Positions 16,736 through 40,137 of a stretch of 58,245 bases of DNA are shown here, piece by piece. The translations under genes and the position numbers were made by a program. Where the stretch lies: the NCBI GenBank assembly GCA_018242165.1, contig JAFECL010000052.1:1-58245 (forward strand), written 5' to 3'. Position 1 is the stretch's first letter; every line of letters begins with the position of its first letter. This stretch comes from Pseudomonadota bacterium. Lineage in GTDB: Bacteria; Pseudomonadota; Alphaproteobacteria; Sphingomonadales; Sphingomonadaceae. The notes under the pieces are model-generated. The model searched no databases. It saw nothing but the letters and a program-made list of their open reading frames with translations, and had not been told where the DNA came from.

Positions 16736-16819
16736 GATGGGTTGTAATGGGTGCGCGGCGGTGGTAGGCCCATCGCAATGATGGCCCCATCAGCGGGCCA
16801 AAGGGCGAGGAGAGGGATT

Positions 16820-19345: not shown

Positions 19346-19384
19346 GCCGAAGCTCCCGGCCAACCGGGATCGAGGCCGATTGAT

Positions 19385-19426
19385 CGCGCCGGCCACTCGC
19401 TGCAAGGACGCAGGGTGGCCGGCGCG
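19385..19426 (+). other. Intercistronic hairpin after the TonB receptor
   Basis: A perfect 12-bp inverted repeat (CGCGCCGGCCAC at 19385-19396 with its complement at 19415-19426) encloses an 18-nt loop. It lies 40 bp after the receptor stop and 37 bp before the glycerate kinase start, with no T-tract. It could attenuate transcription or protect the receptor mRNA from 3' decay, making receptor transcript more abundant than the enzyme transcript. Confidence 0.45.
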
Positions 19427-19463
19427 GATTGCCGGTAGCACGATGGCGCCCGAAGGATCACGG

Positions 19464-21964: not shown

Positions 21965-21971
21965 CGCCGGC

Positions 21972-23213: not shown

Positions 23214-24078
23214 TCACCCGCTAGTCGGGGGGATCGAGCTGGGCGGCACCAAGATCGTGCTGGCGGTAGGGCACCGCGATGGAACGATTGTGGCGCGAAC
23301 GGCCATTCCGACCGAGGCGCCGCAACAATCGCTTCCTCAGCTCATTGCCTTTTTCGCGGCCTGGCGTGGCAGGCTTTGCGGCCTGGGGGTTGCCGCGTTC
23401 GGGCCGATCGTGATCGACCCGGCAGCCGCCGGATATGGTCATCTCCTGGCAACCAACAAACCGGGGTGGAGCGGGTTCGACCTCGTCGGCAGCCTGGCCC
23501 GCGCGCTGGGCCTGCCGATCCGGCTCGTTACCGATGTCGGCGCCGCGGGCATCGCCGAAGCCCGCCTTGGGGCGCTGCGCGGTGCTCCGCTGGGCATCTA
23601 TCTGACCGTCGGCACCGGGATCGGGGGCGCGATCCTGATCGACGGAGACATTGCCCCGGCCCTGCTCCACCCCGAGCTTGGCCACCTGCCGCTGCAACGG
23701 CATCCTGACGACGGGTTTGCCTCAACCTGCCGATTTCATGACTGTTGCGCCGAAGGGCTGGCCGCCGGGCCGGCGATCCAGGCGCGGTTCGGCTCCGCCC
23801 TGAACGCGTTCCGCGAGGGATCGGACGAACACAGGCTGATCTGCGATTATCTCGGACAGCTCTGCGCCCATCTGACCTTGGCCCTGTCGCCGCATCGGAT
23901 CGTCATCGGCGGCGGGGTTGCGCAAGCCCCGGGGATGATCCCGGAAACGCTGCGCGCCATGGTCCGCCATCTCGGTGGATACGCGACACCGCATACCCCA
24001 CTGGACGATTACCTCCGCAGCCCGACGTTTGGCCAGGATGCCGGGATAGCCGGGGCGCTGCTTTGCGCCCCGGGCTGA
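23206..24078 (+). CDS. ROK-family sugar kinase (fructokinase/mannokinase-like)
   Basis: A 290-residue ATP-dependent hexokinase of the ROK family. Residues 9-16 give the phosphate motif (IELGGTK). The TVGTGIGGAILIDG motif and the zinc site in HPELGHLP...HPDD...CRFHDCC follow; the last matches the bacterial fructokinase/mannose kinase subgroup. IGGGVAQAPG lies near the C-terminus. The overlapping start couples it to the MFS gene. It would phosphorylate the hexose released by the GH63-like enzyme (and mannose from GH92). The final gene of the plus-strand run, it is convergent with the pentapeptide-repeat gene across a 27-bp gap in which I see no terminator. Confidence 0.9.
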   Translation: MADHPLVGGIELGGTKIVLAVGHRDGTIVARTAIPTEAPQQSLPQLIAFFAAWRGRLCGLGVAAFGPIVIDPAAAGYGHLLATNKPGWSGFDLVGSLARALGLPIRLVTDVGAAGIAEARLGALRGAPLGIYLTVGTGIGGAILIDGDIAPALLHPELGHLPLQRHPDDGFASTCRFHDCCAEGLAAGPAIQARFGSALNAFREGSDEHRLICDYLGQLCAHLTLALSPHRIVIGGGVAQAPGMIPETLRAMVRHLGGYATPHTPLDDYLRSPTFGQDAGIAGALLCAPG

Positions 24079-24105: not shown

Positions 24106-27100
24106 TCACGGGACGATCACGATATTGCTGATGTTGGCGCCAGCCAGAGCGCCCGCCTGCACGCCGCACCGGGTGAAGGTGACGTTGCTGAGATTGGCGC
24201 CGCTGAACGTGGCTCCGGCAAAGCTGCAGTCGGTGAATTTCGAACCGGACAGGTCCAGGTTGGCCAGGCTGACGGCATCGAACGACACGCCGGAGACAAT
24301 CGCCGTCGGCCCCAGCAGGGCGCCGTTGACCAGGCGCCAGCCGGCGGGCAGGTCGCTCGTCCCCTGCGTGATGCCCGACGAGGTGATGTTGGCGAAGGTC
24401 GCGCCCGAAAAGTTGCAGCCGGCCATGTTGACCCGTGTCAGATCGACGTTGTTGAAGGCCGCGCAGCCGCTGGTCAGGCCGTTGAAGTCGGCGCCGGTCA
24501 GATCGACATTTTCAACCGGCTGAAACTGCCACCCCATGAACCATGCCTGATAGCCCTTCATGAAAGTCACGCCGGGCGCACAGAGATAGCCGCCGATGAT
24601 CGCGCAGCGCGGCGGCAGCTTGGGGGTGCCGGAGATGTTGCCGGTGCGAACCCCGGCCAGCCGCGCGCCGGACAGGTCGACCGACCCGAGATCGCAGTTC
24701 GCGAGCCAGATGCCATCGAGGTTGACGGTCGGCCCCACCAGTACCCCGGGATCGCCAAGTATCGTCCACCCATCCGGCAAGGGAATGTTGGCGGGGGCGA
24801 TGCCCTGGATCGAAATCCAGTCCATCGGCACCCCCCGAAGCCCCTGCGCGTTGGCGGGAACGGTGACCGGGCCCAGGGGCGGGCCGAAATATATCTGGCT
24901 CAATCGGGCACCGGTCAGGTCCGTGCCGACAAAGTCATCCCACATCGGGTTCATCCCCGTCACTTTCGCGCCCGGCCCGACGAAATGGAGGCGCAGGATT
25001 TTCCACGGCGCTGGCAGGATGGCATCGTTGAGCTTGGCGGGCCAACCGACCCCCCCTGCCCATTGGTAGTAGTAGTTGTCGGGAGGTAGCTGTGTGTCGA
25101 TTCCATAGAGCCGCGCGCCACTGAAATCGGTGTTGCACAGCCCGGTGTTGTGCATCACGGCGTTGGTAAGGTCCGCGCCGACGAAGCGGACGTTGGTCAG
25201 GTTGGAATTGTTGAAGCTGGCGCCCGTGAGGTTCGCGCCACTGAAATCGGCACCGGTCAGGTCGAGCCGGTCAAGCACCGCGCCCGACAGATCGGCCCCG
25301 CGCAGATCGGCGCCGGGGGCAATGATGCACTGGTTGTAGAAGACCGCCCCCGGCGACAGCACCGGCGTGCCCACCAGGTTCTGCATGCGCGCGCCGGTGA
25401 AATTGCACCACTGGAGCGAGATCCCGTCGACAAAGGCGCCGCTGAGGTCAAGCCCGGACAGGTCCAGCCCCTCGGCACAGAAATATACCGGGAAGGAGTA
25501 GGGCGACGGCGACATGTTGAAGTTCACCGTCGGCCCGATCGGCATGTTGTAGTTAGGGTTGGTACCCGCGGCCGAACGGATGGTCCAGCCCGTCGGCAAG
25601 ATGCAATCGGTCCAGTTCGACCAGCATGGCTGAATCCCGGTGAAATCGGCGCCGGTGAAATCGCACAGCGTCACCGGGCCATTGAACGAGGCCCCGCTGA
25701 GGTTGGCGCCGGTGAAATCGCACAGGCTGGTGGTGAGAGCCGGGAACAGGACCCCGGAAAGATTGGCGCCGCGGAAATTGATGTTGCTGAGCGAATACCG
25801 GATCCAGGGATTGATGATCGACATGCCCGACAGGTCGGAACCCGACAGATCGATATCCGCCAGATTGCAAATCGACATATTGAAGTAGTAGCCAGGGAAC
25901 ACCCGGCAGCCCGGCCCGAGCAGGGTTCCCGAATTAAGGATCCAGCCGGTTGGCAGCACAGGGGGGCCGGCGGGGAACGACAGGCCGCCCGACTTGATCC
26001 CCTGCAGGGTGGCTCCGGTCAGGTCGATCGCGGCGCTGAAGGTGACATTGTGCAGCGTGGCATCGGTAAGGTTCACCCCCCTGAGGCTGGCCGCCGCGAT
26101 GGTGCAGTTTTCGAAGGTTGCCCCGGTCAGGTCTGCGCCGGGCCCGACCAGCCAGCCCTGGATGATCGCCCAGCCATCGGGCAAGCGGACATTGGGCGGC
26201 GCGGCCCCTGCCGCCACGCAGAACCGGGCCCCGGTCAGCGTGGCTTGCGACAGGTCCAATCCCGAAAGGTCGGTTCCCTCAAGGTTGCAATTGGTCAGGT
26301 CCGAGGTTGGCCCGAGGATGAAGCCGTTGCGGAACACCCACGGTGCGGAGAGCTGCGGGTTCCCCGTGATATTGCCCGAGCGGACATTGCCCAATATAAC
26401 GTTCTGCACATTGGTGCCGGTCAGATCGGCGCCAGCAAGGTTGGCACCGGTAAAGTCCCCGTATAGAAAATTGGCGCCGGTCAGGTTGGCCCGCGGCCCT
26501 ACCAGGTAGCCGTAAACCAGCTTCCAGCCGGCTGGCAGCGTGGGGGTCCCGGTCACCCGCCCGGAGCTTACCCCGTCGAGCAGCGCGCCACTGAGGTCGG
26601 CATTGCCGAGATTGCACCCGGCAAGGCTCTGGTTGCGCAGGTCTGCCCCGGCAAGGTCGACCCCGTCGCCAACCAGCCAGCCGTTGACCAGCAGCCAGCC
26701 GGGCGGCAGCGAGGGCGTGCCGGTCACCCCGCCACTGCGCACCCCTGACAGTTGCGCGGTGGTGAGGTAGGCCGCGTCGAGGTTGGCGCGGGTCAGCTTC
26801 GCGCCCTGCAGCTGGGCACCTGCCAGCATGACATGCGAGAGATTGCTGTCGGTCAGCAGCGCGCCGCGCAGGTCGGCATTGGCCAGCGACGGCTGGATAA
26901 GCCACCAGCTCTGGCTGCTCATGTCCAGCCGGGCCAGGTTGGCATTGCGCAGGTCGGCGGATGGACCAACCAGAAGATCGCCATAGAGCATGCAATTGTT
27001 GGAAGACAGGTTCGGCGTGCCGACATGGTCTACCATCCGCACCCCGGTCATGTCGCAATAGAAGAAGTTCGTTCCCGCCACGTTGGCGCGCGACATGTTG

Positions 27101-29499
27101 GCACCAACCGCCACCCCGTTCACCACAGCGGTAAAAGTGCAGTTGTTGAAGGTCGCGCCGGCCAGATTCGCCCCGCTAAGGTCGCAGGCGCCGAAGTTCA
27201 CGTTGTTGAAGGTCTGGCCGGCAAGGCTGCAGCCGGGGCCGACCAGCACGGCACGGTTGGCAAGGAAGCTTTGCGACGGGCTGAGGTCGACCAGCGTCCA
27301 GCCATCGGGCACCGTCGCGCCTTGCGCCTGCACGCCGAATGCCTGCACACCCTTCAGCACGGCATCGGGCAGGTTCATCGACGGAACCACGCCGGACAAT
27401 GCACCGCCCTTGAAATTGGACCCGATGATGCAGCCGTAATTGAGGTTGAGGCCGGTCAGATTGTAACCGCCAAGCTCCATGCCTGAAATGCTGCCGTACG
27501 ATTGCACCACCAGGCCTGAAAGGCTGAGCGAAGAGCTTGCCGGCAGGGCGGCAGGCAGCTTGCGCGCGATAAGGTATTGGCCCGGGCGGAGATCGTTGGG
27601 CCGGGCCGCACCGAGGTTGGGGGTCGCGACGTTGAAGGTGGCCCCGGTGGTTGGGGCGATCAGCTGGCGGGCGAATTGCGCAACGCTTGGCAGCGCGAAG
27701 GGCATCGCCCCGGCCAGCGCGCTGAGCGACAGGGTGGCCTGGGCGGCGTTGCGCCAGTTCAACCGCACGGCGGGGACGCCGAATGGAGATGTGCTGGGTA
27801 CGCGCGGGTTGAGCGAAAAGTCTGCCGGGCCGGCGGTGGCGAACCCGCAATGCATCGATTCCGGTCGCTGGCTGATCGTGATGCTGCCGATCTCGCCATC
27901 GAACAGATAGAGCTGGACGTTGGGCTGGATCTGCGCGCTCCGCAGGAGATTGAGCGGCGGCCCGCCAGCCGCCCCGTAGGCCCCGGTTCCGCAGGCGGAG
28001 ACAACCATGTCCGGCCAGCCGCTGACCAGCGACGAGCGCATCACGAAGCCGGTGACCAATTTATGCGGATAGGTGGCCGGCGACTGGAGGTGGTTGCCGT
28101 CGTCGATCACATCAGTGGTGGTCACCCGGCCAATGCTGAAAGCGCCATCCAGCAGCGATTGCATCCATGCCGGATCGCAGCGGAACACCCGCAGCGATTC
28201 CGGCGGCAGCATGGCCGCATCGGGGATGAGGTAGCGGTACGGCACGCCTTCGAGCAAGGCGAGCCGCCCGAACCAGGCGCTGACGTCGGCGGGCACCGGA
28301 ACCGGCGCGGCCCCGCCGGCGGCGGTCAATTCGGCCCCGGTCGGTTCGAACGGCAAGTGCACCAGCCGCGTTTCCTCGGCCAGGATCGACTGCTTGTGGG
28401 CGCGCTTCCAGTTGTACAGGCTGTTCGAGATAGCCTGGTTCTGCAGCATCAGCATGCGCCCCAGCTGCCACGCGGCGGCATAGGAAACATCGAACATGCC
28501 AAGCGTGGAATCGAACAGCAGCAATTCGTCGGCAACGTGGACGGGCAAGGTCAGTTCAAGGGTTCCGCCGCCGGGCGCCAGCGGCCCGTGAAAGCGGGCA
28601 TAGGTCTGCCCGCCGCCGCGCAATTGCTGCGGCAAGGCCAGGTGCCCGGTCGAGAGGAAGGCCTCTGCGGTGGAATCGGAGACCGGAGGCATGCGCAAGC
28701 TCGACGGCGAGCGATCGAGGCTGCTCAGCCGGCTGGTGAAATTGCCGCTGCCCCGCTCGCTCGACCACGACCATTGCGCCAGCGAGATCAGGCGGATGCT
28801 GTCGGTATCGCCCGCTGCCCCGAATTGAAAACCACCAGAGAAATAGCGCCCGGCGAGCGAGACCAGATGCGCCACATAGCGCTGGTCATCGCGCGGCACC
28901 CGGCTGGCCAGAACCACCGCCTGCGCCGCCGCTGATGCCGTGGCCGGCTGGCGGACGTGGGCAGTAAACGGCAGATCGGCGACTGTCGGCAGCTGGGCCG
29001 CCAGCAGCGATTTCTGGACATCAAGCACGCTGACCTGGGCGTTCGCGTCCTCGTCCAGTTCGATCGGCATGGCTGGCCAAACGATTGCCCCGGTTCCGGC
29101 CACGGCCAGCGAACCGATTGTCACCGTGCTGGCCGCGAAGGCCTCCCCTTCGGCGAAAACCAGCAAGGCTAGCCACGGATTGTCGCCGGCGAACCCTGGC
29201 GACCGTTCCCAGGGCAGGGTCGCCCGCGACAGGATCACGCTGGGCAACGCGGTCGAAAAGTCGCCATGTCCGTCGCGCGGAGGAAAGACGCCGGCAATAT
29301 CCCCCGACGCCAGCACCGTACGCGGCCCGCCAACCTGGAACGAAGTTTCGGTCGGGGCGGCCGGGGTGATCAGATCGAGGGGGGTGGTGTTTGTCCCGCG
29401 GGTCAAAACCCCCTTCAGCGTCTGTTGGGTCTTGATGCTGTAGCTGCCCGAAGCCAGTGCCGGCTTGCTGTAGCTGAGCAGGGTGATCGGGTCGGTCAT
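24106..29499 (-). CDS. Giant pentapeptide-repeat protein (1797 aa), last gene of a four-gene operon
   Basis: Residues 1 to about 665 are a non-repeat region beginning MTDPITLLSYSKPAL, with conserved-looking phrases (VFPPRDGHGDFSTALPSVIL, LPWERSPG) and no known domain to me. From about 675 to the end the chain is pentapeptide repeats (A[D/N]LxG type, for example FTGANLSGASFNG and LDLSGLDLSGA), predicted to fold as a right-handed quadrilateral beta-helix. About 13 linkers of the form LPxGW-x4-G-x-LVGPGADL interrupt the helix at roughly regular intervals. ATG 29499 overlaps the stop of the upstream gene (29496-29499). There is no signal peptide and no membrane helix. Pentapeptide proteins can mimic DNA or act as scaffolds; nothing here assigns a role. 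Repeated DNA inside is coding, not CRISPR. Confidence 0.88.
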   Translation of the reverse strand: MTDPITLLSYSKPALASGSYSIKTQQTLKGVLTRGTNTTPLDLITPAAPTETSFQVGGPRTVLASGDIAGVFPPRDGHGDFSTALPSVILSRATLPWERSPGFAGDNPWLALLVFAEGEAFAASTVTIGSLAVAGTGAIVWPAMPIELDEDANAQVSVLDVQKSLLAAQLPTVADLPFTAHVRQPATASAAAQAVVLASRVPRDDQRYVAHLVSLAGRYFSGGFQFGAAGDTDSIRLISLAQWSWSSERGSGNFTSRLSSLDRSPSSLRMPPVSDSTAEAFLSTGHLALPQQLRGGGQTYARFHGPLAPGGGTLELTLPVHVADELLLFDSTLGMFDVSYAAAWQLGRMLMLQNQAISNSLYNWKRAHKQSILAEETRLVHLPFEPTGAELTAAGGAAPVPVPADVSAWFGRLALLEGVPYRYLIPDAAMLPPESLRVFRCDPAWMQSLLDGAFSIGRVTTTDVIDDGNHLQSPATYPHKLVTGFVMRSSLVSGWPDMVVSACGTGAYGAAGGPPLNLLRSAQIQPNVQLYLFDGEIGSITISQRPESMHCGFATAGPADFSLNPRVPSTSPFGVPAVRLNWRNAAQATLSLSALAGAMPFALPSVAQFARQLIAPTTGATFNVATPNLGAARPNDLRPGQYLIARKLPAALPASSSLSLSGLVVQSYGSISGMELGGYNLTGLNLNYGCIIGSNFKGGALSGVVPSMNLPDAVLKGVQAFGVQAQGATVPDGWTLVDLSPSQSFLANRAVLVGPGCSLAGQTFNNVNFGACDLSGANLAGATFNNCTFTAVVNGVAVGANMSRANVAGTNFFYCDMTGVRMVDHVGTPNLSSNNCMLYGDLLVGPSADLRNANLARLDMSSQSWWLIQPSLANADLRGALLTDSNLSHVMLAGAQLQGAKLTRANLDAAYLTTAQLSGVRSGGVTGTPSLPPGWLLVNGWLVGDGVDLAGADLRNQSLAGCNLGNADLSGALLDGVSSGRVTGTPTLPAGWKLVYGYLVGPRANLTGANFLYGDFTGANLAGADLTGTNVQNVILGNVRSGNITGNPQLSAPWVFRNGFILGPTSDLTNCNLEGTDLSGLDLSQATLTGARFCVAAGAAPPNVRLPDGWAIIQGWLVGPGADLTGATFENCTIAAASLRGVNLTDATLHNVTFSAAIDLTGATLQGIKSGGLSFPAGPPVLPTGWILNSGTLLGPGCRVFPGYYFNMSICNLADIDLSGSDLSGMSIINPWIRYSLSNINFRGANLSGVLFPALTTSLCDFTGANLSGASFNGPVTLCDFTGADFTGIQPCWSNWTDCILPTGWTIRSAAGTNPNYNMPIGPTVNFNMSPSPYSFPVYFCAEGLDLSGLDLSGAFVDGISLQWCNFTGARMQNLVGTPVLSPGAVFYNQCIIAPGADLRGADLSGAVLDRLDLTGADFSGANLTGASFNNSNLTNVRFVGADLTNAVMHNTGLCNTDFSGARLYGIDTQLPPDNYYYQWAGGVGWPAKLNDAILPAPWKILRLHFVGPGAKVTGMNPMWDDFVGTDLTGARLSQIYFGPPLGPVTVPANAQGLRGVPMDWISIQGIAPANIPLPDGWTILGDPGVLVGPTVNLDGIWLANCDLGSVDLSGARLAGVRTGNISGTPKLPPRCAIIGGYLCAPGVTFMKGYQAWFMGWQFQPVENVDLTGADFNGLTSGCAAFNNVDLTRVNMAGCNFSGATFANITSSGITQGTSDLPAGWRLVNGALLGPTAIVSGVSFDAVSLANLDLSGSKFTDCSFAGATFSGANLSNVTFTRCGVQAGALAGANISNIVIVP

Positions 29500-32400
29500 G
29501 CGTAGCTTCCCAACTCGGGTGCCTTGAGGAAACTGGCTGCGATGGTGTTGGTATCGCCGATGGCGAACTGCGGGGTGATGCCCAGCCCCCGCAGCAGCTC
29601 CGCGCGCGCAGCAGCGACGGATGGCTGCATCAGCCTGCTGGCGATAAAGGTGCGGGGCGTGGCCCCGGTCGGCAGGTATGCGCTCGGCATCGGAGTGAAG
29701 GTCTGCCCGGCCTGCCAGGCAAAGGCCTGATTGACCACGCCCGCCGTGGCGCTCAGGTCGGCTTCGGTGACGGTGCAGCTGGCCCCGGTGGCCGCAGCCG
29801 CAGCAGGTTTGATCGAAACCCCGGCCAGCATGGGGTAAAGCGCCTGATCGCCCAATCCGCTGGCCCCCGGCGCGCCCCACAAAGCGGCGGGCATGGCCTT
29901 GACCGTGGGGGTGAAGGTGAACTGGGCGTTGACCTGCGTGCCGCCGTAAAAGACTTCGATGGACAGCGCGCTCTCGCCCACCGAAGGAACGGCAATCCAG
30001 TCGACCAGCCCCGGGATGGGCCGGTCGAAGTAGCCCATTGGCGCAATCCCGATGTCGGTACGGGTACCTGCCGGGATTGCCACGCTGGCCCCGGTGGCGG
30101 TGATTGTCTTGAGCGGAATTGCGGAGTTGTAGGCGATCTGCAGTTGCGCCGGGTTGATCAGGCCCAGCGATGCGCCGGCGCCCGGCTGCACCAGTCCCCC
30201 GGTTACGGTCACACCGGTCTGGGCGCTGGGCGGAGGCAGGAAGGCCGCGCAGAACCCTGGCCAATCAAGATAGGGCGGGCTGGCCGGATCCTGGCCAAAG
30301 CTGATGGTGAACTTGATGACCTTGACCCGGACCACCGCACGGCCGGAAAATTCCGGTCCCCACATCGACAGGTCGGCGCCCGCATCGATGTCGATCGTAT
30401 GCCGGCCGAACATGTGGATGACGACCGAGGCGCCGACATCGATCGACATGCTGGCTTCGTAGTGGAACGGCTTCCAGGCGACCAGAAAGTCGGCCCGGGT
30501 CCGGAACCAGGCGCGCACATCGCCATCGCGCCACTGCGCTTCCAGCGTCCCCCCGGCCATGACCTGCGCCGGGGTGAGCGCGAAATAGCACTCGCCCTTC
30601 ACGTTCAACTGGCGGGTGACCTGCCAGTTGAACCCCAGCCGTGGCACCGCGGGATAGTGCCGCGGTTTCATATAGGCGGGATTGTAGCCGCCCATCGTCA
30701 GCACGAAGTCGCCCGCGCTGATCCGGTTGCCGGCGGCATCGGTTACCGATTTGAACCAGCTGTAGAAAGCAAAGCCGCCCGACAGCCGGCAGGCCGGCGC
30801 GAACAGGTAGGACGCCGGGGTCAACTGGCCGTTGATCGCCAGCTCGCCCCGCGCGGGGAGGAGCGAACCGCGCAATTCCATCTCGACATTCACCACTGGC
30901 GGGATTGCCCCGGCCGTGGGCGGGACCTTGGCAACCGACAGCCCGACAACGTCGATCCGGGTTTCCTTGCCCAGCGACAGGGTTACCAGCGCGAACGAAT
31001 CGATCAGCTTGAACGAGTTGAACTTGACCCCGATTCCGAAGAACTTCTCGCCCAGCGCCATCGGGATCGAAGGCCGCAGCTGGCTCAGCACATCGGTCAG
31101 CCGCGGTTGCGGCAAGGCCGGGTTGTTGGCCTTGGTCACCGCCAGCTGGACCAGCGGATAGGTTGCGATCCCGCCGATTCCGGGCAGTACCAGCTTGCGA
31201 TTGAAGCCGAAGGTCCCGGCCAGGCCGGTCACCGTGAAGCAGGGTGGCCCGCCAAGCACCTTGTCGACCAGGGCAAAGCCAAACAGCGAAGCCTCGCCGG
31301 CCACGGTCGAATAGGAGGCAATCGCCCGCAGCGTCAGCTCGCCCGACTTGAGCACCGCGAAGCCATCGTAGCTGTCGGGCGTGGCGGGCGCCGTCGCCGT
31401 GGCCGCGGTCCCGGGCGTGCGCAGCAGCGCGCCACCGATCTCGACGGTGGGCGACTTGTAGTCGAGCCCGATCCCCAGGAGGTTGAAGCTCGGCCGCGAC
31501 CGGTCGAGCGGAATCGAAACCGACAGCCCTTCGAGCGCCAGGGTCATGCCGCCCGAAGTCATCGCCGCACCCAGCCACAGCGAGACGGTATTGGAGGCCA
31601 GCCCGATGCCGACCCGGTTGATCACCACCGGCCCGAGGGTCTTCTGGATGTCGAACCAGGCAAGGTTCGGCTGGTTGGTCGCCCTGACGGTGGTCACGCC
31701 CGAACGGGCCGGGGCGGCCGGCGGCGGGGTGGGTCCGCCGGTTCCGGCACCCGACGCGGTGGCGGGCGCGGCTGCCGCAGTCATGTTGAGCGCCAGCGGA
31801 ACCGACAGGGCCCGGTTGCCCACGAACAGGTTGGTGAAGACCTGAAGATTGGCGGGCAGTTCGGCATCGGTCTCGAAGGCGCCGGCGCCGGGCGGCAGCG
31901 CGCGGTTGATTGCCTTCAGCTCGTTGACGGTGAACGGCTTGGTGGCGATGACCGGCTGAAACTGCAGGCGCATGCCCGATCCGGCCGGCAGGCGGGTGCC
32001 GACTACCGGCAGGTCGGCAAGGTTGAATGCCCCTTCGAAGGTGGTGGTCAGCAGGATCTTGGTGACCAGCGCGCCGCCGGCTGCCGGAACCCCCCGATAG
32101 ACCACCAGCATGGCATCGGTCAGCGAGACATCAAGGCTTTCGGGAACCGTGCTGCTGTCGATCTGAGCCAGCGACTGGACGAATTTCCGCAGCGAAAAGG
32201 GTTCGGTCGCCGCGCCGCCAAACATGCACACCAGCATGGTCGCCGAGGGATCGGAGCCGAAGTAGACGTTGAAGGCGTATTCGCCGATGTAGAGAATGCC
32301 CTTGAAGCTCTTGGCCCACTGGCCGCCGGTCAGGCTGGTGATGTCGAGAACCAGCCGGAGCGAGCCCGCCATGTCCGCTTCGCCGGTCAGCGGGAATGCC

Positions 32401-33884
32401 AGATCGATGGTTATCGTCGCGTTGCGGGTTGCGGTGTGGAACTCCAGCACAAAGGCGTCCACGGTCATCCCGGCCACGGCCGCGGGCAGGCGCACTCCGT
32501 CGAACTGCGCGGCAAGTTGCGCCGCGAGCTGGCCCACCGGCATGCCCGAACTGCTGACTGCGGCACCACGGAATTGCCATCCGCCATTGCAGTAGGAGGC
32601 ATTGATGGCCAGCCGCATCCCGGCGAAGCTGGTCATGGCCGACAGCGTCGCGTCGACTATGCCCGCCTGCAGCGAGAAGGCCAGCATCAGGGAATCCATG
32701 GTCAGGGTTCCGTTGCCGAGCGGAACCTGCCACGACGACAGCAGCAGCGTTCCGGCATAGGCGGAACTTGCGGTATCGAGCCTGATATCGAGATCGTTCA
32801 CCGTCGCGGCGGTGATCTGGTCGATCCCCGGCAGCCCCGGCACGAATTGCCGCGCCAGGGTGGCCAGCGCATACTTGTTGCCGGAAACCGGAAGCAGCCG
32901 GATCGTCCGCTTGGGGAATTCGATTTCCGCATCGATCTGCAGGCCACCACAATCGGCCCTGGCACCGAGCTGGATGAAAGCCCCGGAGCCGGCGAGATAG
33001 CCCAGCGAAAGTTCGAACTCGCTTACCGATACCGGCCCGATGGCCAAAGATCGGCTCGCCGTAAGGCGCGCGCGGCTGCCGATCGTCCGGCCGGTATAGC
33101 GATCGTAGCGCCACTCCATGCCGGCAAGTTCGACATTGGCATCGTCCACCGCTGCCGGCAGATCCGGGATGAACGCCGGGGCCAGCGCCTGCAGGGTCGA
33201 GGCCAGGGTTCCTGGGGTAAAGCCCGAGAAGCTCAGGTCGACGAGGGTCTCGCCCGAGATGGCATTGCCGCGCAACCGCGCGGTCGCGGCAACCGAGGCC
33301 GCCGGGCGCGCCGCCCGTGCCCCCGCCGCCGGACTTGCCGCAGCCGCAGCCAGCGTGGCGGTGGCCGTCACGAAGATCCCCGCAGCGAGCGGCTCGCCAT
33401 CTGCGGCCAGGCTGGCCAGGCTGGCGGCAAAGCTGGCGGAAAGATCGGGCGCCAGGGTCGCGCGTTCGGCCGCCGTCACCGCGCCCGAAATGTAGAGGAA
33501 CCGGGTGTTCCCGAAAGCGAGCAACTTGCCGGCGTCGAGCGCGGCGTCGTCGCCCATGCCCGGCCCGCCCCAATTGGCCACCGATCCCGCTATCAGCGCG
33601 CGCACCGTGCCATTCAGGTTGATCAGCACGATATCGAGCGCCATTTGCGGCAGGCCAAAGCTGCCGTTCCAGTTGGCGGCGGCCTTGATCAGGCTGTCGG
33701 TGGCGGCGGTGCGGGTCACTCCGTTGAGCACCTGCGCGCCTCGGGCGAAGGTATCCACCCATGGCTGGAACAGGCCAATGGCGCCCAGCGCCTCGGCGGC
33801 AAGGTCGACGGAAATGCCGGAAAACTGGCGGGTGATCGTTGCCCAGGCGGTGTCGGCCGGCGTGCTGACGGTCGGCGTGGTCAT
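29496..33884 (-). CDS. Large DUF6603-like protein (1462 aa), third gene of the operon
   Basis: A 1462-residue protein without signal peptide. The N-terminal about 690 residues consist of repeated beta-rich domains (LASTLQALAPAFIPDLPAAVDD and similar). A block at about 690-1190 (LGIGLDYKSPTVEIGGALLR; GGYNPAYMKPRHYPAVPRLG; LNVKGECYFALTPAQVMAGG; FLVAWKPFHYEASM) matches my memory of DUF6603, an uncharacterised family in bacteria and fungi. A C-terminal beta domain of about 250 residues follows. ATG 33884 overlaps the upstream stop by 4 bp, and its own stop overlaps the pentapeptide gene, implying coupled translation and fixed stoichiometry. A frame extension to 33950 lies within the upstream gene and is not a credible start. 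Function unknown. Confidence 0.85.
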   Translation of the reverse strand: MTTPTVSTPADTAWATITRQFSGISVDLAAEALGAIGLFQPWVDTFARGAQVLNGVTRTAATDSLIKAAANWNGSFGLPQMALDIVLINLNGTVRALIAGSVANWGGPGMGDDAALDAGKLLAFGNTRFLYISGAVTAAERATLAPDLSASFAASLASLAADGEPLAAGIFVTATATLAAAAASPAAGARAARPAASVAATARLRGNAISGETLVDLSFSGFTPGTLASTLQALAPAFIPDLPAAVDDANVELAGMEWRYDRYTGRTIGSRARLTASRSLAIGPVSVSEFELSLGYLAGSGAFIQLGARADCGGLQIDAEIEFPKRTIRLLPVSGNKYALATLARQFVPGLPGIDQITAATVNDLDIRLDTASSAYAGTLLLSSWQVPLGNGTLTMDSLMLAFSLQAGIVDATLSAMTSFAGMRLAINASYCNGGWQFRGAAVSSSGMPVGQLAAQLAAQFDGVRLPAAVAGMTVDAFVLEFHTATRNATITIDLAFPLTGEADMAGSLRLVLDITSLTGGQWAKSFKGILYIGEYAFNVYFGSDPSATMLVCMFGGAATEPFSLRKFVQSLAQIDSSTVPESLDVSLTDAMLVVYRGVPAAGGALVTKILLTTTFEGAFNLADLPVVGTRLPAGSGMRLQFQPVIATKPFTVNELKAINRALPPGAGAFETDAELPANLQVFTNLFVGNRALSVPLALNMTAAAAPATASGAGTGGPTPPPAAPARSGVTTVRATNQPNLAWFDIQKTLGPVVINRVGIGLASNTVSLWLGAAMTSGGMTLALEGLSVSIPLDRSRPSFNLLGIGLDYKSPTVEIGGALLRTPGTAATATAPATPDSYDGFAVLKSGELTLRAIASYSTVAGEASLFGFALVDKVLGGPPCFTVTGLAGTFGFNRKLVLPGIGGIATYPLVQLAVTKANNPALPQPRLTDVLSQLRPSIPMALGEKFFGIGVKFNSFKLIDSFALVTLSLGKETRIDVVGLSVAKVPPTAGAIPPVVNVEMELRGSLLPARGELAINGQLTPASYLFAPACRLSGGFAFYSWFKSVTDAAGNRISAGDFVLTMGGYNPAYMKPRHYPAVPRLGFNWQVTRQLNVKGECYFALTPAQVMAGGTLEAQWRDGDVRAWFRTRADFLVAWKPFHYEASMSIDVGASVVIHMFGRHTIDIDAGADLSMWGPEFSGRAVVRVKVIKFTISFGQDPASPPYLDWPGFCAAFLPPPSAQTGVTVTGGLVQPGAGASLGLINPAQLQIAYNSAIPLKTITATGASVAIPAGTRTDIGIAPMGYFDRPIPGLVDWIAVPSVGESALSIEVFYGGTQVNAQFTFTPTVKAMPAALWGAPGASGLGDQALYPMLAGVSIKPAAAAATGASCTVTEADLSATAGVVNQAFAWQAGQTFTPMPSAYLPTGATPRTFIASRLMQPSVAAARAELLRGLGITPQFAIGDTNTIAASFLKAPELGSYA

Positions 33885-35836
33885 AGCGCGGAACTCCCCG
33901 GCACGAGGGGCGGGACCCAGGCAACCCGCTTGACGGCCCCGGTTGGCCACAGCATCGCGATTTGCCGAAATGCGGCGGCCAGCGCGACCGGATTGGGCAG
34001 GGTCGCGCCGTCATCAACCTCGAGCCGCAGACCGCGATTGACCAGATTGCCGGGATGCCCGGTCTCGCAGGCGAGGCCAATCGAACGCCGATCCTCGCAA
34101 ACGAGCTGGAAGGTCATCTCGCTCGACAGCGTGCCATAGGACCATGCCTGATAATTCGGCGCCTTGAGGACATTGGTCAGGTCGGCCCGGCCAAGCTTGC
34201 GCATCGCCGTCAGCAGGCTGGCCTTGTCCGCCTTGAGCGCGTCGAGATAGGAGTCGAGCTGGGTGGCAAGGGTATCGGCGCCATTGAGCGACTTCAGATA
34301 GTCCATCGTCGCCTCGATCATCGGATCGCCACCGATCTCTTCGAAAGCCTCGTCGGCGAAGCGGGCAACGGCGCGCTCGGTCATCGATGGCGGGCCGGGC
34401 GGGTCAGCCTCGTTCAGCGGATTGCCCAGCGAAAAGCCGCCGCCGCCCTGCGATGGATTGCGGGTGATAAGGTAAGCGGGCAGCCGGGCGCTGGCGATGG
34501 CCGTCCAGATCTGCGACTTGTACTGTTCGATCGCAAACAGCGCGATCTCCGCCGCGCCCGGCTGGCACGCCTCGAGGCGGCCCAGCAGTTCGATCGCCAG
34601 GCACTGCGGCAGCGGGCTGAACGCCTTGCGCCGGTTGGTGCCATCATCGCCGTTGAAATAGGGCGCCATCGCTGCGGGCTTGCAGATCAGGTCGTCGTAG
34701 GCGCGCACCAGGAAGTTCAGGCACAACAGATAGACCGTGCCCCGGATGAGCTTCATGGTCATGCGCCGGGCGCGCCAGAACCGACCGTTCGCGGCCCGGC
34801 CATCGCTGCCGTACCAGTCGGCATAGGCGTTCAGGATCACGCTGTTGATCAGGTCGGTCAGCGAGGCGACGGCGGCGATCGCGACCGGCGGCCGCCCGTC
34901 GGCGACATAGCTGCATTCGCCCAGCGCGGCCGCGAAGGCGTCGGACAGCTTCATGTAGAAATCGAAAGCGCCAACATCGGGTGACGAACCCGCCGCCTGA
35001 CTGGCGCCCTTGGCCGCGCTCGACGCCGGGTTCAGCATGGTCGCGGTGCGTTCGGTGTAGAACTCGCGCGCCAGATTGAAGAAGCTGGCACTGCCGACGC
35101 TGGCCAGATCGATGTCGAAGGTGGTGCGGCAGGTCGCCGCGCCGCTGCCGAAGGAATCGTTGGCAACCGTCAGGGGCACGCCGATCTGGCGGACGATGCC
35201 GGTGCCGATCTCGCGGTAGGTGACCGGCGCCGCCTTGGGGTAGAAATTGCCCGCCGCCGGCACCGGCGGGTCGGCCACCACCGGATAGAGCGGCGGGGTC
35301 CAGCCATTGCTGGCGGGGGCGAAGGTCGGGGCGCTGGCGCCGCCGACCGGCGGCTTGCGCAGCCGCGCCAGAACCGTCTGGATCTGACCGATGACCGCCG
35401 GAGCGGCGGCAACGCCGACGGGCTGGGTGACAATGCGCACATGTGCCGCTTTCTGCACGTTGCCGCCCACCCGCCCGGCGCGGATCTGGATCGCGTAATT
35501 GGTACCGCTGATCGACGCGACTGCCGCAGAAAGAATCGAGCTTGCATCCAGAATCGGCAATTCGTTGAGCGTCGAAGGGACGATCTTCAGCCCGGTGCAG
35601 GCAAAGTCGAGCGCCACCCGCTGCTGGTCAGCCGGAGCGGCGGCGGCGGTGGGTGCGGCCGGGGCCGCTGCGGGCGCGGGTGCCGCGGTCGATCCGGCGG
35701 CCGGCGCCGGGGCCAGTCCGACCGCCTGGGTGGCCGAGAGAACGGTGCGGCTGCCCTCGGTTGCCGCTGCCGTGGCGCCGGATGCGCTGGCCGCCGCAGG
35801 TGCAGGGGACGGGGTGGTGGTCGTGGTATCGGTCAT
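33881..35836 (-). CDS. Hypothetical protein (651 aa), second gene of the operon
   Basis: The protein opens MTDTTTTTPSPAPAA and residues 8 to about 80 are Ala/Pro/Ser/Thr-rich low complexity, probably a flexible tether. The rest is a mixed alpha/beta body with a strongly helical centre (RFWRARRMTMKLIRGTVYLL, then LNFLVRAYDDLIC) and a C-terminal FQLVCEDRRSIGLACETGHPG motif. I recognise no domain. There is no signal peptide. ATG 35836 is chosen over TTG 35896; neither has a good ribosome-binding site, and 76 bp separate ATG 35836 from the upstream stop. The stop overlaps the DUF6603-like gene by 4 bp, so it belongs to the same unit. Confidence 0.8.
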   Translation of the reverse strand: MTDTTTTTPSPAPAAASASGATAAATEGSRTVLSATQAVGLAPAPAAGSTAAPAPAAAPAAPTAAAAPADQQRVALDFACTGLKIVPSTLNELPILDASSILSAAVASISGTNYAIQIRAGRVGGNVQKAAHVRIVTQPVGVAAAPAVIGQIQTVLARLRKPPVGGASAPTFAPASNGWTPPLYPVVADPPVPAAGNFYPKAAPVTYREIGTGIVRQIGVPLTVANDSFGSGAATCRTTFDIDLASVGSASFFNLAREFYTERTATMLNPASSAAKGASQAAGSSPDVGAFDFYMKLSDAFAAALGECSYVADGRPPVAIAAVASLTDLINSVILNAYADWYGSDGRAANGRFWRARRMTMKLIRGTVYLLCLNFLVRAYDDLICKPAAMAPYFNGDDGTNRRKAFSPLPQCLAIELLGRLEACQPGAAEIALFAIEQYKSQIWTAIASARLPAYLITRNPSQGGGGFSLGNPLNEADPPGPPSMTERAVARFADEAFEEIGGDPMIEATMDYLKSLNGADTLATQLDSYLDALKADKASLLTAMRKLGRADLTNVLKAPNYQAWSYGTLSSEMTFQLVCEDRRSIGLACETGHPGNLVNRGLRLEVDDGATLPNPVALAAAFRQIAMLWPTGAVKRVAWVPPLVPGSSAL

Positions 35837-35912
35837 GGACGATGACTCGGGCTGCGAGGGAGGGGCAAGGGCGCCGTTGCCGGTGCCGTTGCGCAAATGG
35901 GTGCCGGCCCGG

Positions 35913-38900
35913 TCACTCGAAGCGCCGGCTCAGCTGCAGCCAGCCGTCGCGCACCACCTGGGTGCCGACGGGCATGACCGCAGGGTTGTCCGGGGCGACG
36001 GGCTCGACGGTCCAGGCCAAACGGCTGCCCTGTTGCAGCCAGGCCCAATCGTAGCCCGGCGTTTCGCGCAGCGGGAGGGCAACCTGGCCGCTGTCGCTGA
36101 TGATCGGGGCGGCAAGAAAGGTCATCTTGAGCGACTGCATCGCCTTGGCGAACTGTTCGGCCGGGATATCGATCGACTTGGTCGGCAGGACGCCGCTGGT
36201 GGCAAAGACCTTGCCGCGCGGATCGACCAGCATCGCCAGGGTGAGCGGCGCGGCGTCGACCGACAGCGCCAGGGCCGCTGCGCTGGCAATCCCGGGGCTT
36301 GCCGCCGGGGTAGCGGTGGATGACGCGGGGGCGGGGGCGGTGGAATAGAAGGTGTTGTTGCGATAGCTCTCGGCGCTTTCGACCCAGTAGCCCACCACCC
36401 CGTCGCCGACCCGGCCACCCTCGCCGATCCGCACCGGGATGTTCACCGCCCCCACCCCGGCGTCGCGGGCCGGCCGTCCGCCGACCCTTGCCGCCAGATC
36501 GTCGGGCAGCTGTGCGGTTGCCGTCGGCCCCTTTTGCGAGAGGCCGAGCGAAGCCCGCACCAGCGCGACCGGGCGGCCGACCATCACCGACAGCCCGGCA
36601 TGTTGCGCGGCGCCTTCGGGATCGATGTTGCCGAGGCTGGAGTCGATCGCCTGCATCAGGTTGGCGATGAAGGTTCTGCCCCCGGTTGCCTGCTGCGCCT
36701 GGGCGACCAGAAAGGACACCAGCCGCCGCAGGTAGGGGTTGGGAATGGCATCGGGAATGCGCGCGCCGGCGCCCCCGGGGGCCATTTGCCACGCGCTGTC
36801 GGCCAGCACCGAGATCGTGCCCAGGGCGATGCCATCGGCGGTGTAGACCATCAGGCTTTCATCGAGATAATTGGGCAGCAGCCACCCGCAGACCGGCGCA
36901 GTGGCCGGATGGCTGTTCATCTCGATTTCGCCGTTGACCGCAGAAAGCCAGCGCAGGTCGATCCGCGTCGGCTGCACCAGGCGCGGCGGCAGCGCGAAAC
37001 AGGCTGCCCCCGCCGAAGTCTGCAGGGCGCTGCTGGTCAACACGGGTTTGCCAGCTGCGGGCAGCTTGAGGGTCAGGATCTGGCCGAAACAGTCGACGAT
37101 CCGCAGCCCGGTAAACCGGAAGGCGCCATTGCGGATCGGGTTGAAGCCCAGCCCATCCGAGGGTGCGGCGACGGCATAGTCGCCGATCAGCGGAGCGATC
37201 TGCGCCGCGAGGGCATTGGCATCGGATGAGGAAGGATCGGTTACCGGAAGCTGGGTGCCGGTGGTGAGCGAGAGCAGCGCATCGTTGATCCCGCCAAGCA
37301 CCTGCGAGGCTATGCCGACCCCTTGCAGCTTCTCATAGGCCACCAGGGCAGTGCAGCCGGCATCGGGCGCCGTGGGCGCGGTAACCCCGGCAAACTGCGT
37401 GAGCGCGGCGGATCTGGCGCCAGCGATGGCGGCGGCGCTTGCCGCGGTGGCGGCAGGCAGCACCTTGTCTTGGATATAGCGCACCAGCTGGCTCTGGCCG
37501 AGTGCGCCGGCATCCTCGGTCAGGATGCTGCGCCCGGTCAGGCGGCGTCCGGTGGCAACGAGGGCAGGGCTGGCGACGGGCTGCAGCTCGGGCCCGAGGC
37601 TGGCGAAACGATAGTTGGCGGTCAGAAAGTCGGCCGGGTAGGCGGCGACTGGCCCCGGCGGCTGTGGGGGCGGTGGCGGCGGGGGCACGCCCATGGCAGA
37701 GCCGAACGCATCGGCGATGCTCCCCCCGGGGCCCGACGGCGGCGGGGGCGGTGGTGCCGGTGGCTGCAGCAACTCGATTTCCCACTCGAGGAACAGCGGG
37801 TGCCAGGGCGCAACGGTGGACGCGTTGAACCCGGCGGCAAGGGTACGATCGCTGCTGGCCACTGCGGCCAGCACGGCGTCGAGCCCCGCGGTATCGGTAA
37901 GCGGGCCATTCCCCGGCAGGGCCATCGAGCCCGAATAGAACAGGCACGGCACCGCGGCCCCAATGGCATAGCGCGCCGATGGCAAGGCGGCGCCGGAAAG
38001 GAGGATGGCAGGGTTGGTCGGCCGCCAGAAGCGCGGCGCCCCGGTCGACTGGATGGTGTATTGCGGATCGTTCCGGCCACTGGCCTCATTGCCATCGGCA
38101 ACCGCTGCGTTGTGGGCCGCGAGGGCGGCGTCCAGCTCGGCCAGCAGGCTCGCCACCTGTTGGGCGGCGGTTGGAGCGGGCGAGGCGCCGCCCGGCGCGG
38201 TGACCCCCGGATCAAACCCGGCGCGCACGGCGGTGAGGCTGCCACCCGGGCCGGATTCCAGAGTCAGCAGGCCGCTGGCCTGGCACAGCGTCTGGATCCG
38301 GTCAGCGTCCGCGCCCCGCAGCAGTGTGGCAATGGCGGCGGCGCCCGTCGCAGGCGGGCTGCTGGCGGCATGATGCGTCGCCTGCTGATAGCGACACCAA
38401 TCCGCAAACACCTGGGCACGCGCCGCAACCACCGCGCGGCGGGCCCGATTGTAGGCCAGCTGCGCCGAATTGAGCGCGTTGAGCAGATGCGCCAGCGGAT
38501 CCGGCAGGGTAACGGATTCCGCCTCCTCCGCGCTGATTTCGGGCGAGATGGACGGCGCCTCGGCGCTTTGTGGCCGCACGCTCCAGATCAGGCCGGAAAG
38601 GTCCGGCGAGAAGCCCTGCGCGTGGCGCAGATCGCGAAACCGCCGCGCCGTGTCGAGCTGGGTGGCGTTGAAGCCGATCTGCAACCGGATCATCTCCAGC
38701 TGGTCTTCGATCGCGGCGCGCGCGGTATCGGGAAGCGCGGCATTACTCGACTTGAGCTCGGTGAAGACTTGCTGGGTCAGCCAGGCGGACAGGGCCTCGC
38801 CAGTGTTGCTGCCGACCGCAACGCTTGCTTCGTCGGCCATTGCCGCAGGGTTGGCCGCCAGTGCCGTGGCGGGCAGCACCAGCTGGCCATAACAGATGAA

Positions 38901-39692
38901 GCTCGCCGGCACGGCGTTCAACAGGCCGTTCCACTCCCACCCGAAGCGGGCTTTCAACGTGGCCCATTCCTCCGCGATCTGCGCGCTGGTGGTCGGCGCG
39001 CTGCCGGTCCTGATTTCGGCCAGAAAATCGACCAGCGGGCACTGGGTGGCATCGGAATACCAGCCGTAAACGGTGTAGGTCTGCCCGGCACAGGCTGTTG
39101 TCGCCGGATCGTGGGCGCCGAATACCTGCGGCGCATTGCCATAAAGCGCGGCAAAGGCCGGGTCGCCCCAGCCGATGGCGGTCAGCCGGTCAAGATAGCG
39201 CGCCCCGCTGGTCGGCGCCCAGCCTGCGGCGGCACTTTGCCGACCGAGATAATGGAACGGTTCGGGATCCGCCGCGCCATTCGGGGGGAAAGTCGAAATC
39301 GGGCCGGCCGGGGCCGTTCCCGCCGGATGCAGGTAATCGCTTTCGATCAGCCACGAGGTGGCGGTCGCCGTGCTGCCACTGCCCGTGCTGCGCGTCACCA
39401 GCCAGCGGTTGGGGCAGCGAGGAAACTGCAACTGGCCATTGAGGCTGGTGGCGTGCGACAGCGCGGATGGCAACGTCCAGTGCAGGTGGGTGCCGGCTGG
39501 CAGGGTGAGGCCGGGGGCGGCCATCGGAGCGGCGGCGACCGACGCGCCCAGGAACGGGTTGGCGCCATTCATCAAGGTGGTGCCGCTGAGGTATGGCAAG
39601 GCCGAGAAATCTGCGGTTGCCCCAGCCACGGCTGTCGCGCTTCCCAGCACCAGTGCGTCGAGATGCACTGGCACCATCAGGATGTCAGCCAT
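35913..39692 (-). CDS. Large hypothetical protein (1259 aa), first gene of the operon
   Basis: The protein begins MADILMVPVHLDALVLG at ATG 39692, preceded by GGGGGGCAAGGC. Conserved-looking phrases include LPAGTHLHWTLPSALSHA near the N-terminus, WHPLFLEWEIELLQPP in the middle and VCGWLLPNYLDESLMVYTADG near residue 950. Two polyproline stretches (about residues 643-680) separate N- and C-terminal halves. I have seen similar phrases only in uncharacterised bacterial proteins and cannot name a family. A helical central region (about residues 330-480) may form coiled coil. There is no signal peptide or membrane segment. As the promoter-proximal gene it probably sets expression of the four-gene set. 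Confidence 0.82.
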   Translation of the reverse strand: MADILMVPVHLDALVLGSATAVAGATADFSALPYLSGTTLMNGANPFLGASVAAAPMAAPGLTLPAGTHLHWTLPSALSHATSLNGQLQFPRCPNRWLVTRSTGSGSTATATSWLIESDYLHPAGTAPAGPISTFPPNGAADPEPFHYLGRQSAAAGWAPTSGARYLDRLTAIGWGDPAFAALYGNAPQVFGAHDPATTACAGQTYTVYGWYSDATQCPLVDFLAEIRTGSAPTTSAQIAEEWATLKARFGWEWNGLLNAVPASFICYGQLVLPATALAANPAAMADEASVAVGSNTGEALSAWLTQQVFTELKSSNAALPDTARAAIEDQLEMIRLQIGFNATQLDTARRFRDLRHAQGFSPDLSGLIWSVRPQSAEAPSISPEISAEEAESVTLPDPLAHLLNALNSAQLAYNRARRAVVAARAQVFADWCRYQQATHHAASSPPATGAAAIATLLRGADADRIQTLCQASGLLTLESGPGGSLTAVRAGFDPGVTAPGGASPAPTAAQQVASLLAELDAALAAHNAAVADGNEASGRNDPQYTIQSTGAPRFWRPTNPAILLSGAALPSARYAIGAAVPCLFYSGSMALPGNGPLTDTAGLDAVLAAVASSDRTLAAGFNASTVAPWHPLFLEWEIELLQPPAPPPPPPSGPGGSIADAFGSAMGVPPPPPPPQPPGPVAAYPADFLTANYRFASLGPELQPVASPALVATGRRLTGRSILTEDAGALGQSQLVRYIQDKVLPAATAASAAAIAGARSAALTQFAGVTAPTAPDAGCTALVAYEKLQGVGIASQVLGGINDALLSLTTGTQLPVTDPSSSDANALAAQIAPLIGDYAVAAPSDGLGFNPIRNGAFRFTGLRIVDCFGQILTLKLPAAGKPVLTSSALQTSAGAACFALPPRLVQPTRIDLRWLSAVNGEIEMNSHPATAPVCGWLLPNYLDESLMVYTADGIALGTISVLADSAWQMAPGGAGARIPDAIPNPYLRRLVSFLVAQAQQATGGRTFIANLMQAIDSSLGNIDPEGAAQHAGLSVMVGRPVALVRASLGLSQKGPTATAQLPDDLAARVGGRPARDAGVGAVNIPVRIGEGGRVGDGVVGYWVESAESYRNNTFYSTAPAPASSTATPAASPGIASAAALALSVDAAPLTLAMLVDPRGKVFATSGVLPTKSIDIPAEQFAKAMQSLKMTFLAAPIISDSGQVALPLRETPGYDWAWLQQGSRLAWTVEPVAPDNPAVMPVGTQVVRDGWLQLSRRFE

Positions 39693-40063
39693 GCCTTGCC
39701 CCCCGGATGGCCCCGGCGGGCGCCCGGGCAGCATCGTTAACTGAAGATGATCAGCATATCAGCACTTTGCGGCAGCACAAACGATTCCGGCAGCAGGCCA
39801 AGACCGAGAAATTGCCCCACGGCTTCCCGCCGCTAGCCGGATCGGATCATCCAGTTTCCCACCCGCGATCATCGGGCCGGGGGGTGATCAGGCAGGTACG
39901 GTTTACGCTACATCTGCAGGACCGCGCAGGGCAGCGAAGCGAAGGAACAGAGGGTTTGCTGCACCGGGCGCGCTGGAGCGGGTGAAGGGAATCGAACCCC
40001 TCAGCGGAGCAGCTTGCTGCACAGCGCATCAAGGAATCGGGGGTTCATTGAGCTGGGCATCGT
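39693..40063. other. 371-bp gene-free region upstream of the giant-gene operon
   Basis: This gap lies between the start of the four-gene operon and tRNA-Gly. It must contain the operon promoter, but I see no convincing -35/-10 pair; TTAACG on the minus strand near 39735 is a weak -10 candidate. It holds the partial tRNA 3'-end copy at 39974-39999. Small ORFs crossing it lack coding character and ribosome-binding sites. Confidence 0.5.
39974..39999 (-). repeat. 26-bp duplicate of the tRNA-Gly 3' end (att-like)
   Basis: The 26 bases here are identical to 40064-40089, the CCA end, acceptor 3' strand and T-arm of tRNA-Gly(UCC), in the same orientation and 90 bp away. The match stops after the T-arm and no 5' half (GCGGGTG) follows, so it is not a second tRNA gene. 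Integrases commonly target tRNA 3' ends and leave such copies. It could also be a remnant of a decayed tandem tRNA. A short AGCTCAATG match to the D-arm lies within the spacer. Confidence 0.7.
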
Positions 40064-40137
40064 TGGAGCGGGTGAAGGGAATCGAACCCTCGTCGTAAGC
40101 TTGGAAGGCTTCTGCTCTACCATTGAGCTACACCCGC
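40064..40137 (-). tRNA. tRNA-Gly (UCC)
   Basis: The minus strand folds as a standard cloverleaf: acceptor GCGGGTG pairs with CACCCGC, D-arm AGCTCAATGGTAGAGC, anticodon loop CTTCCAA (anticodon UCC), T-loop TTCGATT. The discriminator is U and CCA is encoded (40064-40066). It decodes GGA/GGG glycine codons. Its 3' end is duplicated at 39974-39999. Confidence 0.96.

Follow-up and report, generated by a model that had tools for sequence, protein, structure and literature searches.

The nearest described counterparts of the operon studied here are two protein families and two kinds of modular system. DUF6603 (PF20248) is listed in Pfam as a family of unknown function, and pentapeptide-repeat proteins (PF00805; NCBIfam Alr5209) are the second family. 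Phage-tail-derived injection systems offer a general likeness, in that they too consist of big proteins, encoded together, whose binding domains vary. The metallo-beta-lactamase-fold (MBL) modules of Lamassu, Avs and DRT pair an invariant core with an exchangeable gene of nuclease type upstream; according to PMC12799240, defence systems of separate origin have taken up MBL nucleases time and again along with a trypsin-like protease, the MBL gene lying directly upstream of a trypsin-fused enzyme. We analysed a stretch of 58,245 nucleotides (the window; contig JAFECL010000052.1, Sphingomonadaceae) that carries four consecutive minus-strand genes for giant proteins, termed P1 to P4. P3 is a clear DUF6603 member, and the C-terminus of P4 shares the pentapeptide repeats, there fused to a conserved front part named P4N. 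Like the Lamassu, Avs and DRT modules, the relatives of this operon join a constant core to an upstream nuclease-type gene that is swapped, and the MBL protein of locus G190 is similar in sequence; by contrast, PADLOC has no model that fits P1–P4, and a search with one motif recognised no trypsin-like protease next to the MBL genes. Unlike phage-tail-derived systems, they include no phage structural homologue detected with PHROGs. Three families, P1, DUF6603 and P4N, belong to a conserved system that appears to be undescribed, and a sister form exists in bacteria and haloarchaea. We propose, tentatively, that the window carries one copy of a modular system spread by horizontal transfer.

The original prediction knew of no described system with such a composition, and none turned up in the titles and abstract openings of the literature searched. 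DUF6603 or PF20248 gave no papers there (preprints and most subscription journals lay outside the search), and a control, DUF4157, gave 24; since three neighbouring DUF numbers were also without papers, the zero for DUF6603 carries little weight.

Co-occurrence and parallel divergence of the core families

The distribution of the families was examined in a partial genome sample with one genome per species, in which Actinomycetota, Bacillota and archaea were covered through plasmid records. DUF6603 was present in 9/398 sampled genomes of the window's phylum, and the P1 and P4N profiles matched the identical nine; assuming independence, the chance of one such pair coinciding is about 1 in 6.3e17. 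In the acidobacterial phylum (that of contig L011), DUF6603 was found in 5 of 247 genomes. Besides the window, 17 complete loci of this kind (type I) were collected (G190, G261, G091, G235, G277, G031, G070, G246, G569, G474, L011, L028, L029, L030, L031, L032 and L055); their open reading frames (ORFs) were called by script, so that start codons are uncertain. The order DUF6603-P4N-P1 was seen in all 17. A further conserved region, P4m, was a separate gene in 9/17 and was not found in G569, and P1 of G261 was split over two ORFs.

The three core families also diverge in parallel. Their pairwise distance matrices, computed for the window and 16 other loci (17 in all; G261, a near copy of G190, was omitted), correlated with r values of 0.886, 0.888 and 0.903, none of which was reached in 5000 permutations. 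Between G190 and G261, the ratio of non-synonymous to synonymous substitution rates was 0.080 for DUF6603, 0.100 for P4N, 0.260 for P4m and 0.078 for P1 (1136 codons). The sequences show that DUF6603, P4N/P4m and P1 stand together in the loci read, in one order outside the window and with parallel divergence. A conserved system as predicted is thus borne out for these three families, which form the core by their shared genomes, linkage and order, and is not supported for P2, which was detected in its own genome only. The four genes are unequal partners, P2 having no detectable relative. With P2 so restricted and the pentapeptide part of P4 a local add-on, the earlier proposal of a fixed ratio between the four products is unsupported. 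On a Paenibacillus sonchi plasmid (L054, 15915-21266), P4N and a split P1 were seen, with DUF6603 not in the stretch read and an annotated phospholipase D (PLD)-like gene about 1 kb downstream on the opposite strand.

The window operon and its proteins

The predicted layout was recovered in every respect: four minus-strand genes of the stated lengths, ATGA overlaps of four bases at P2/P3 and P3/P4, and a 76-bp gap between P1 and P2 (Table 1). The gene order is exceptional among the type I loci in that P1 comes first and P2 lies between P1 and DUF6603. By a plain hydropathy scan, made with no trained predictor, none of P1–P4 has a convincing signal peptide or membrane helix, as had been proposed; the highest 19-residue mean, 1.86, lay in P1. 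The polyproline stretch of P1 was confirmed from its sequence.

Table 1 Genes and protein regions of the operon within the window
Feature	Position	Strand	Description
P1	35913..39692	-	1259 aa; third core family
P2	33881..35836	-	651 aa; orphan occupying the variable slot immediately 5' of DUF6603
P3	29496..33884	-	1462 aa; carries DUF6603 (PF20248) in residues 746-1222
P4	24106..29499	-	1797 aa; fusion of a core front (P4N and P4m) with a pentapeptide C-terminus
P4 conserved front	27580..29499	-	residues 1-640: P4N ~1-380, P4m ~400-600
P4 pentapeptide-repeat region	24106..27579	-	variable module, ~1150 residues

DUF6603 in P3 (E 9e-125; 417.5 bits vs a cut-off of 27) and the pentapeptide repeats in P4 (PF00805; 269.4 bits vs 20.2), both anticipated from the sequence, were the sole Pfam families over cut-off in P1–P4; an LD_SV2 match in the P4 repeat region remained below threshold (20.3 bits, cut-off 29). 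P4 consists of two parts, a conserved front of about 600 residues (P4N and P4m) and the pentapeptide C-terminus. Pentapeptide-like words numbered 49 in P4 vs 0-6 in the P4N ORFs of the 17 other type I loci. The C-terminus passed the cut-off of the NCBIfam Alr5209 family and stayed below those of the Qnr, MfpA, HetL, PipB and HalA models (for the equivalogs Qnr and MfpA, 106.5 vs 240 and 50.6 vs 360).

The core was otherwise without database counterparts. P1–P3 matched nothing in NCBIfam or PHROGs, and the P4 matches were confined to the repeat part, where the PHROG families hit have no assigned function. In searches with 14 members each, P1 and P4N had no significant Pfam match (two P1-family members reached marginal E values of 0.034 and 0.042), and the 14 P4N members had no PHROG match. 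PDB profiles gave none for P1 and one insignificant match for P4N (E 0.27). No relative of P3 or P4N was found among phage records, and no P1 relative was confirmed in viral contigs with one pattern; nothing in these sets clearly pointed to a phage or to a secretion apparatus, the outcome that would have spoken against the original prediction.

Architectures and spread

The loci fall into three architectures: a long form, a short form and type II. In the seven long-form loci (G235, G277, G070, G031, G246, G569 and G474), a small conserved protein, U, is followed by a DUF6603 protein of ~3250-3390 aa, P4N, P4m, P1 and a large protein. This last protein belongs to one BLAST family in 6/7 loci, which G569 joins weakly (E 2e-8) and of which G031 has no member; a beta-propeller relative was sought in G031 by tblastn, with none found. 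Only in G569 could sortilin and BNR (beta-propeller) domains be recognised; three others tested had no Pfam match. For long-form DUF6603 (4 sequences), self-comparison gave a match between residues 180 and 800 when shifted by ~220 residues (probability 97). The short form, comprising the window and 10 further loci, has DUF6603 ORFs of ~850-1840 aa with varied neighbours, and no internal repeats were found in its DUF6603 sequences.

Type II comprises 11 loci (G473, G452, G398b, L033 and L066-L072, the plasmid loci being 8 of 13 plasmid records with IIb), three of them on haloarchaeal plasmids. DUF6603-IIa-IIb-IIc was colinear in 11/11; in L069 and L070, one of IIa and IIb is split. By hhalign, IIa is distantly related to P4N (probabilities 97.8 and 98.2), and P4m aligned with the C-terminal half of IIa colinearly but weakly (probability 30). 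IIb was considered as a distant P1, and no relation was detectable. IIa, IIb and IIc are also encoded by an unverified faecal 'bacteriophage' contig (L073, MT835531.1).

A DUF6603 tree built from 22 loci recovered the long form as one clade (support 100/99) and likewise the four type II loci included (100/100). The acidobacterial G474 nested with two loci from the window's phylum, G246 and G031, which indicates transfer across phyla. Plasmid-borne copies were found in Streptomyces, Embleya, Paenibacillus, Rhizobium, Nocardia and haloarchaea. One acidobacterial genome (G398) holds both a type I set (C50, L011) and a type II set (C20; L050-L051), and one Embleya plasmid holds two type I sets (L028 and L055).

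The variable slot and added domains

The gene directly upstream of DUF6603 was compared in 29 loci (18 type I, the window included, and 11 type II). It encoded an MBL-fold hydrolase in four (G190, G261, L028 and L029), a PhoD-like protein in four (G473 and L066 by Pfam, G452 and L067 by BLAST, L067 with an additional peptidoglycan-binding domain), a PLD in one (G398b) and U in seven, and had no assignment in 13, among them P2. Metal-type motifs were present in the three MBL proteins examined and two HKD motifs in the G398b PLD. The MBL protein of G190 matched PADLOC models LmuA, RTasMBL, Avs1a and PDC-M48B, as well as ComEC domains in PDB, and was the single match among five non-window proteins compared with PADLOC; P1–P4 and the three type II proteins tested matched no family. 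Trypsin-like partners were sought in the ORFs of the four MBL loci with a single motif, G[DN]SG[GS]. Two L029 ORFs carried it, neither fused to a core gene: one lies ~3.5 kb upstream of the MBL ORF and has no TAAHC-type histidine motif, and the other overlaps P1 on the reverse strand.

P2 had no relative in plasmids or in 336 other genomes of its class (1/337, its own), and nothing at E ≤ 0.001 in 14 other genomes and records (W06 left out), where matches were at chance level (E 0.0097-0.29). Distant kinship of P2 with U, IIa, IIb, IIc, P1, P4N, P4m or DUF6603 was looked for too, and no relation was detected. Domains added within or near the core comprised PLAT, LTD, S8 peptidase and Ig-like domains; by annotation BGTF, VCBS and WD40; and a peptidoglycan-binding domain, both annotated and recognised by Pfam. 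Pentapeptide repeats, fused to P4N in the window, form a separate annotated gene in L033. In the loci compared, the gene directly upstream of DUF6603 thus varies, and extra domains are fused to the core or adjoin it.

Proposed role and alternative explanations

With reservation, we favour a reading in which giant proteins that are inherited together, and moved horizontally, form a scaffold on which recognition domains and a hydrolase, both exchangeable, are displayed. The core proteins would be made in the cytoplasm and would co-assemble into a large soluble scaffold, whose binding target would be set by the added domains, in the window the pentapeptide region of ~1150 residues on P4. The slot gene would then bring a phosphodiester- or phospholipid-cleaving activity to the bound target; where the slot holds no recognised enzyme, it may bring another effector, and P2 would be that effector in the window, given its position in the slot of other loci. 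The system would most likely serve contacts with other biological entities, be they competitors, hosts or mobile DNA, and not housekeeping. Several observations weigh against this reading. Correlated distances and purifying selection are expected from any linked, useful operon. With no recognised slot enzyme in 13/29 loci and U in 7/29, hydrolysis is unsupported as an essential feature, and no known domain was recognised in P2. Among the recognised enzymes, the G190 MBL lies slightly below the Pfam cut-off (21.6 vs 22.7), and the PLD of L030, located downstream, has N in place of the motif D. The core proteins scanned showed no signal peptide, although many of the added domains are typical of cell surfaces, and the hydropathy of relatives is mixed: U of G569 has a strong, membrane-helix-like stretch (3.55), and DUF6603 of G277 a weaker one (2.16).

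One alternative is a surface or extracellular complex for nutrient acquisition and adhesion, in which polymers or lipids are bound by the scaffold outside the cell and PhoD, PLD or MBL enzymes release phosphate or lipid. Such a complex is rather unlikely in our judgement. It agrees with the surface-typical PLAT, LTD, BGTF, VCBS, peptidoglycan-binding and S8 peptidase domains, with the signal-like N-terminal stretch of the gene after P1 in G091, with the hydrophobic stretch of U in G569 and with the sugar-utilisation locus and TonB receptor beside the operon, but neither the four window proteins nor the four slot enzymes scanned showed a signal peptide, no exporter was recognised within the conserved set, and the distribution is patchy (9/398 and 5/247 genomes). 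Defence against phages or plasmids, with the giant core sensing an invader and switching on an exchangeable nuclease, is unlikely as well. The swapping of the effector slot resembles defence systems, the G190 MBL matches defence and ComEC models as given above, and recurrent recruitment of MBL nucleases by unrelated defence systems is described in PMC12799240; Streptomyces plasmids carry conflict-type genes nearby (CATRA/CHAT, TIR-MoxR-TPR and NB-ARC), a proximity with no statistical control. Set against this, the core contains no recognised nucleoside triphosphatase (NTPase) or known sensor, the proteins tested from the window and from type II have no PADLOC match, no trypsin-like partner of the MBL was recognised with the single motif, and 20/29 loci have no recognised slot hydrolase.

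A toxin-delivery or tail-like particle is improbable. Large co-encoded proteins with interchangeable enzymes and binding domains would fit one, and in Paenibacillus polymyxa (L030, 3066-11063) annotated baseplate-V-like, DUF4280 and pentapeptide genes lie ~9 kb upstream of the cassette; however, P1–P3 and the P4N members were without PHROGs, P3 and P4N without relatives among phage records and P1 without one in viral contigs by one pattern, and no sheath, tube or ATPase was recognised in the conserved set. That unrelated large genes merely adjoin one another in the window is very improbable indeed: the window order differs from that of 17 relatives, and neither P2 nor the pentapeptide part is shared beyond its own genome among those searched, yet the identical occurrence and linkage of P1, P3 and P4N already contradict it for these three, and it still stands for P2. 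Returning to the scaffold, we would suggest, with similar reservation, that it may constitute a new class of prokaryotic giant-protein machine, in which three to four proteins form a scaffold with no recognised NTPase, found in bacteria and archaea, often plasmid-borne, with interchangeable binding domains and an equally interchangeable phosphoesterase-type effector. If so, P1, P4N/IIa, IIb, IIc and DUF6603 would gain a common context, a system that has passed between phyla and is found in Bacteria as well as Archaea would become directly testable, and the phosphodiesterase-like enzymes swapped at one fixed position would give a concrete handle on function.

Genomic surroundings of the operon

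Near the operon, the 3' tail of a tRNA-Gly recurs at 90-bp spacing (window 39971-40137, one extra copy). It was considered as an integration scar and rejected: a second tRNA-Gly of the same genome (L061, G000:C11, 1234-1487) is followed by two extra tail copies at the same spacing, so that the feature resembles a tRNA-tail repeat, in the manner of rtT of tyrT, more than an attachment site. An empty site was sought in four neighbourhoods of EAL relatives, which had no tRNA-Gly, ROK gene or operon.

On the other side, window 16751-24078 holds the sugar-utilisation locus, with the TonB receptor, DUF4147/MOFRL, an MGH1-like glycoside hydrolase, a major facilitator superfamily transporter and ROK; the glycoside hydrolase occurred in 1/39 genomes of the family, its own. 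Upstream of the operon, window 40258-43014 encodes an MHYT-PAS-GGDEF-EAL protein, whose best plasmid relatives were in Sphingomonas and Novosphingobium.

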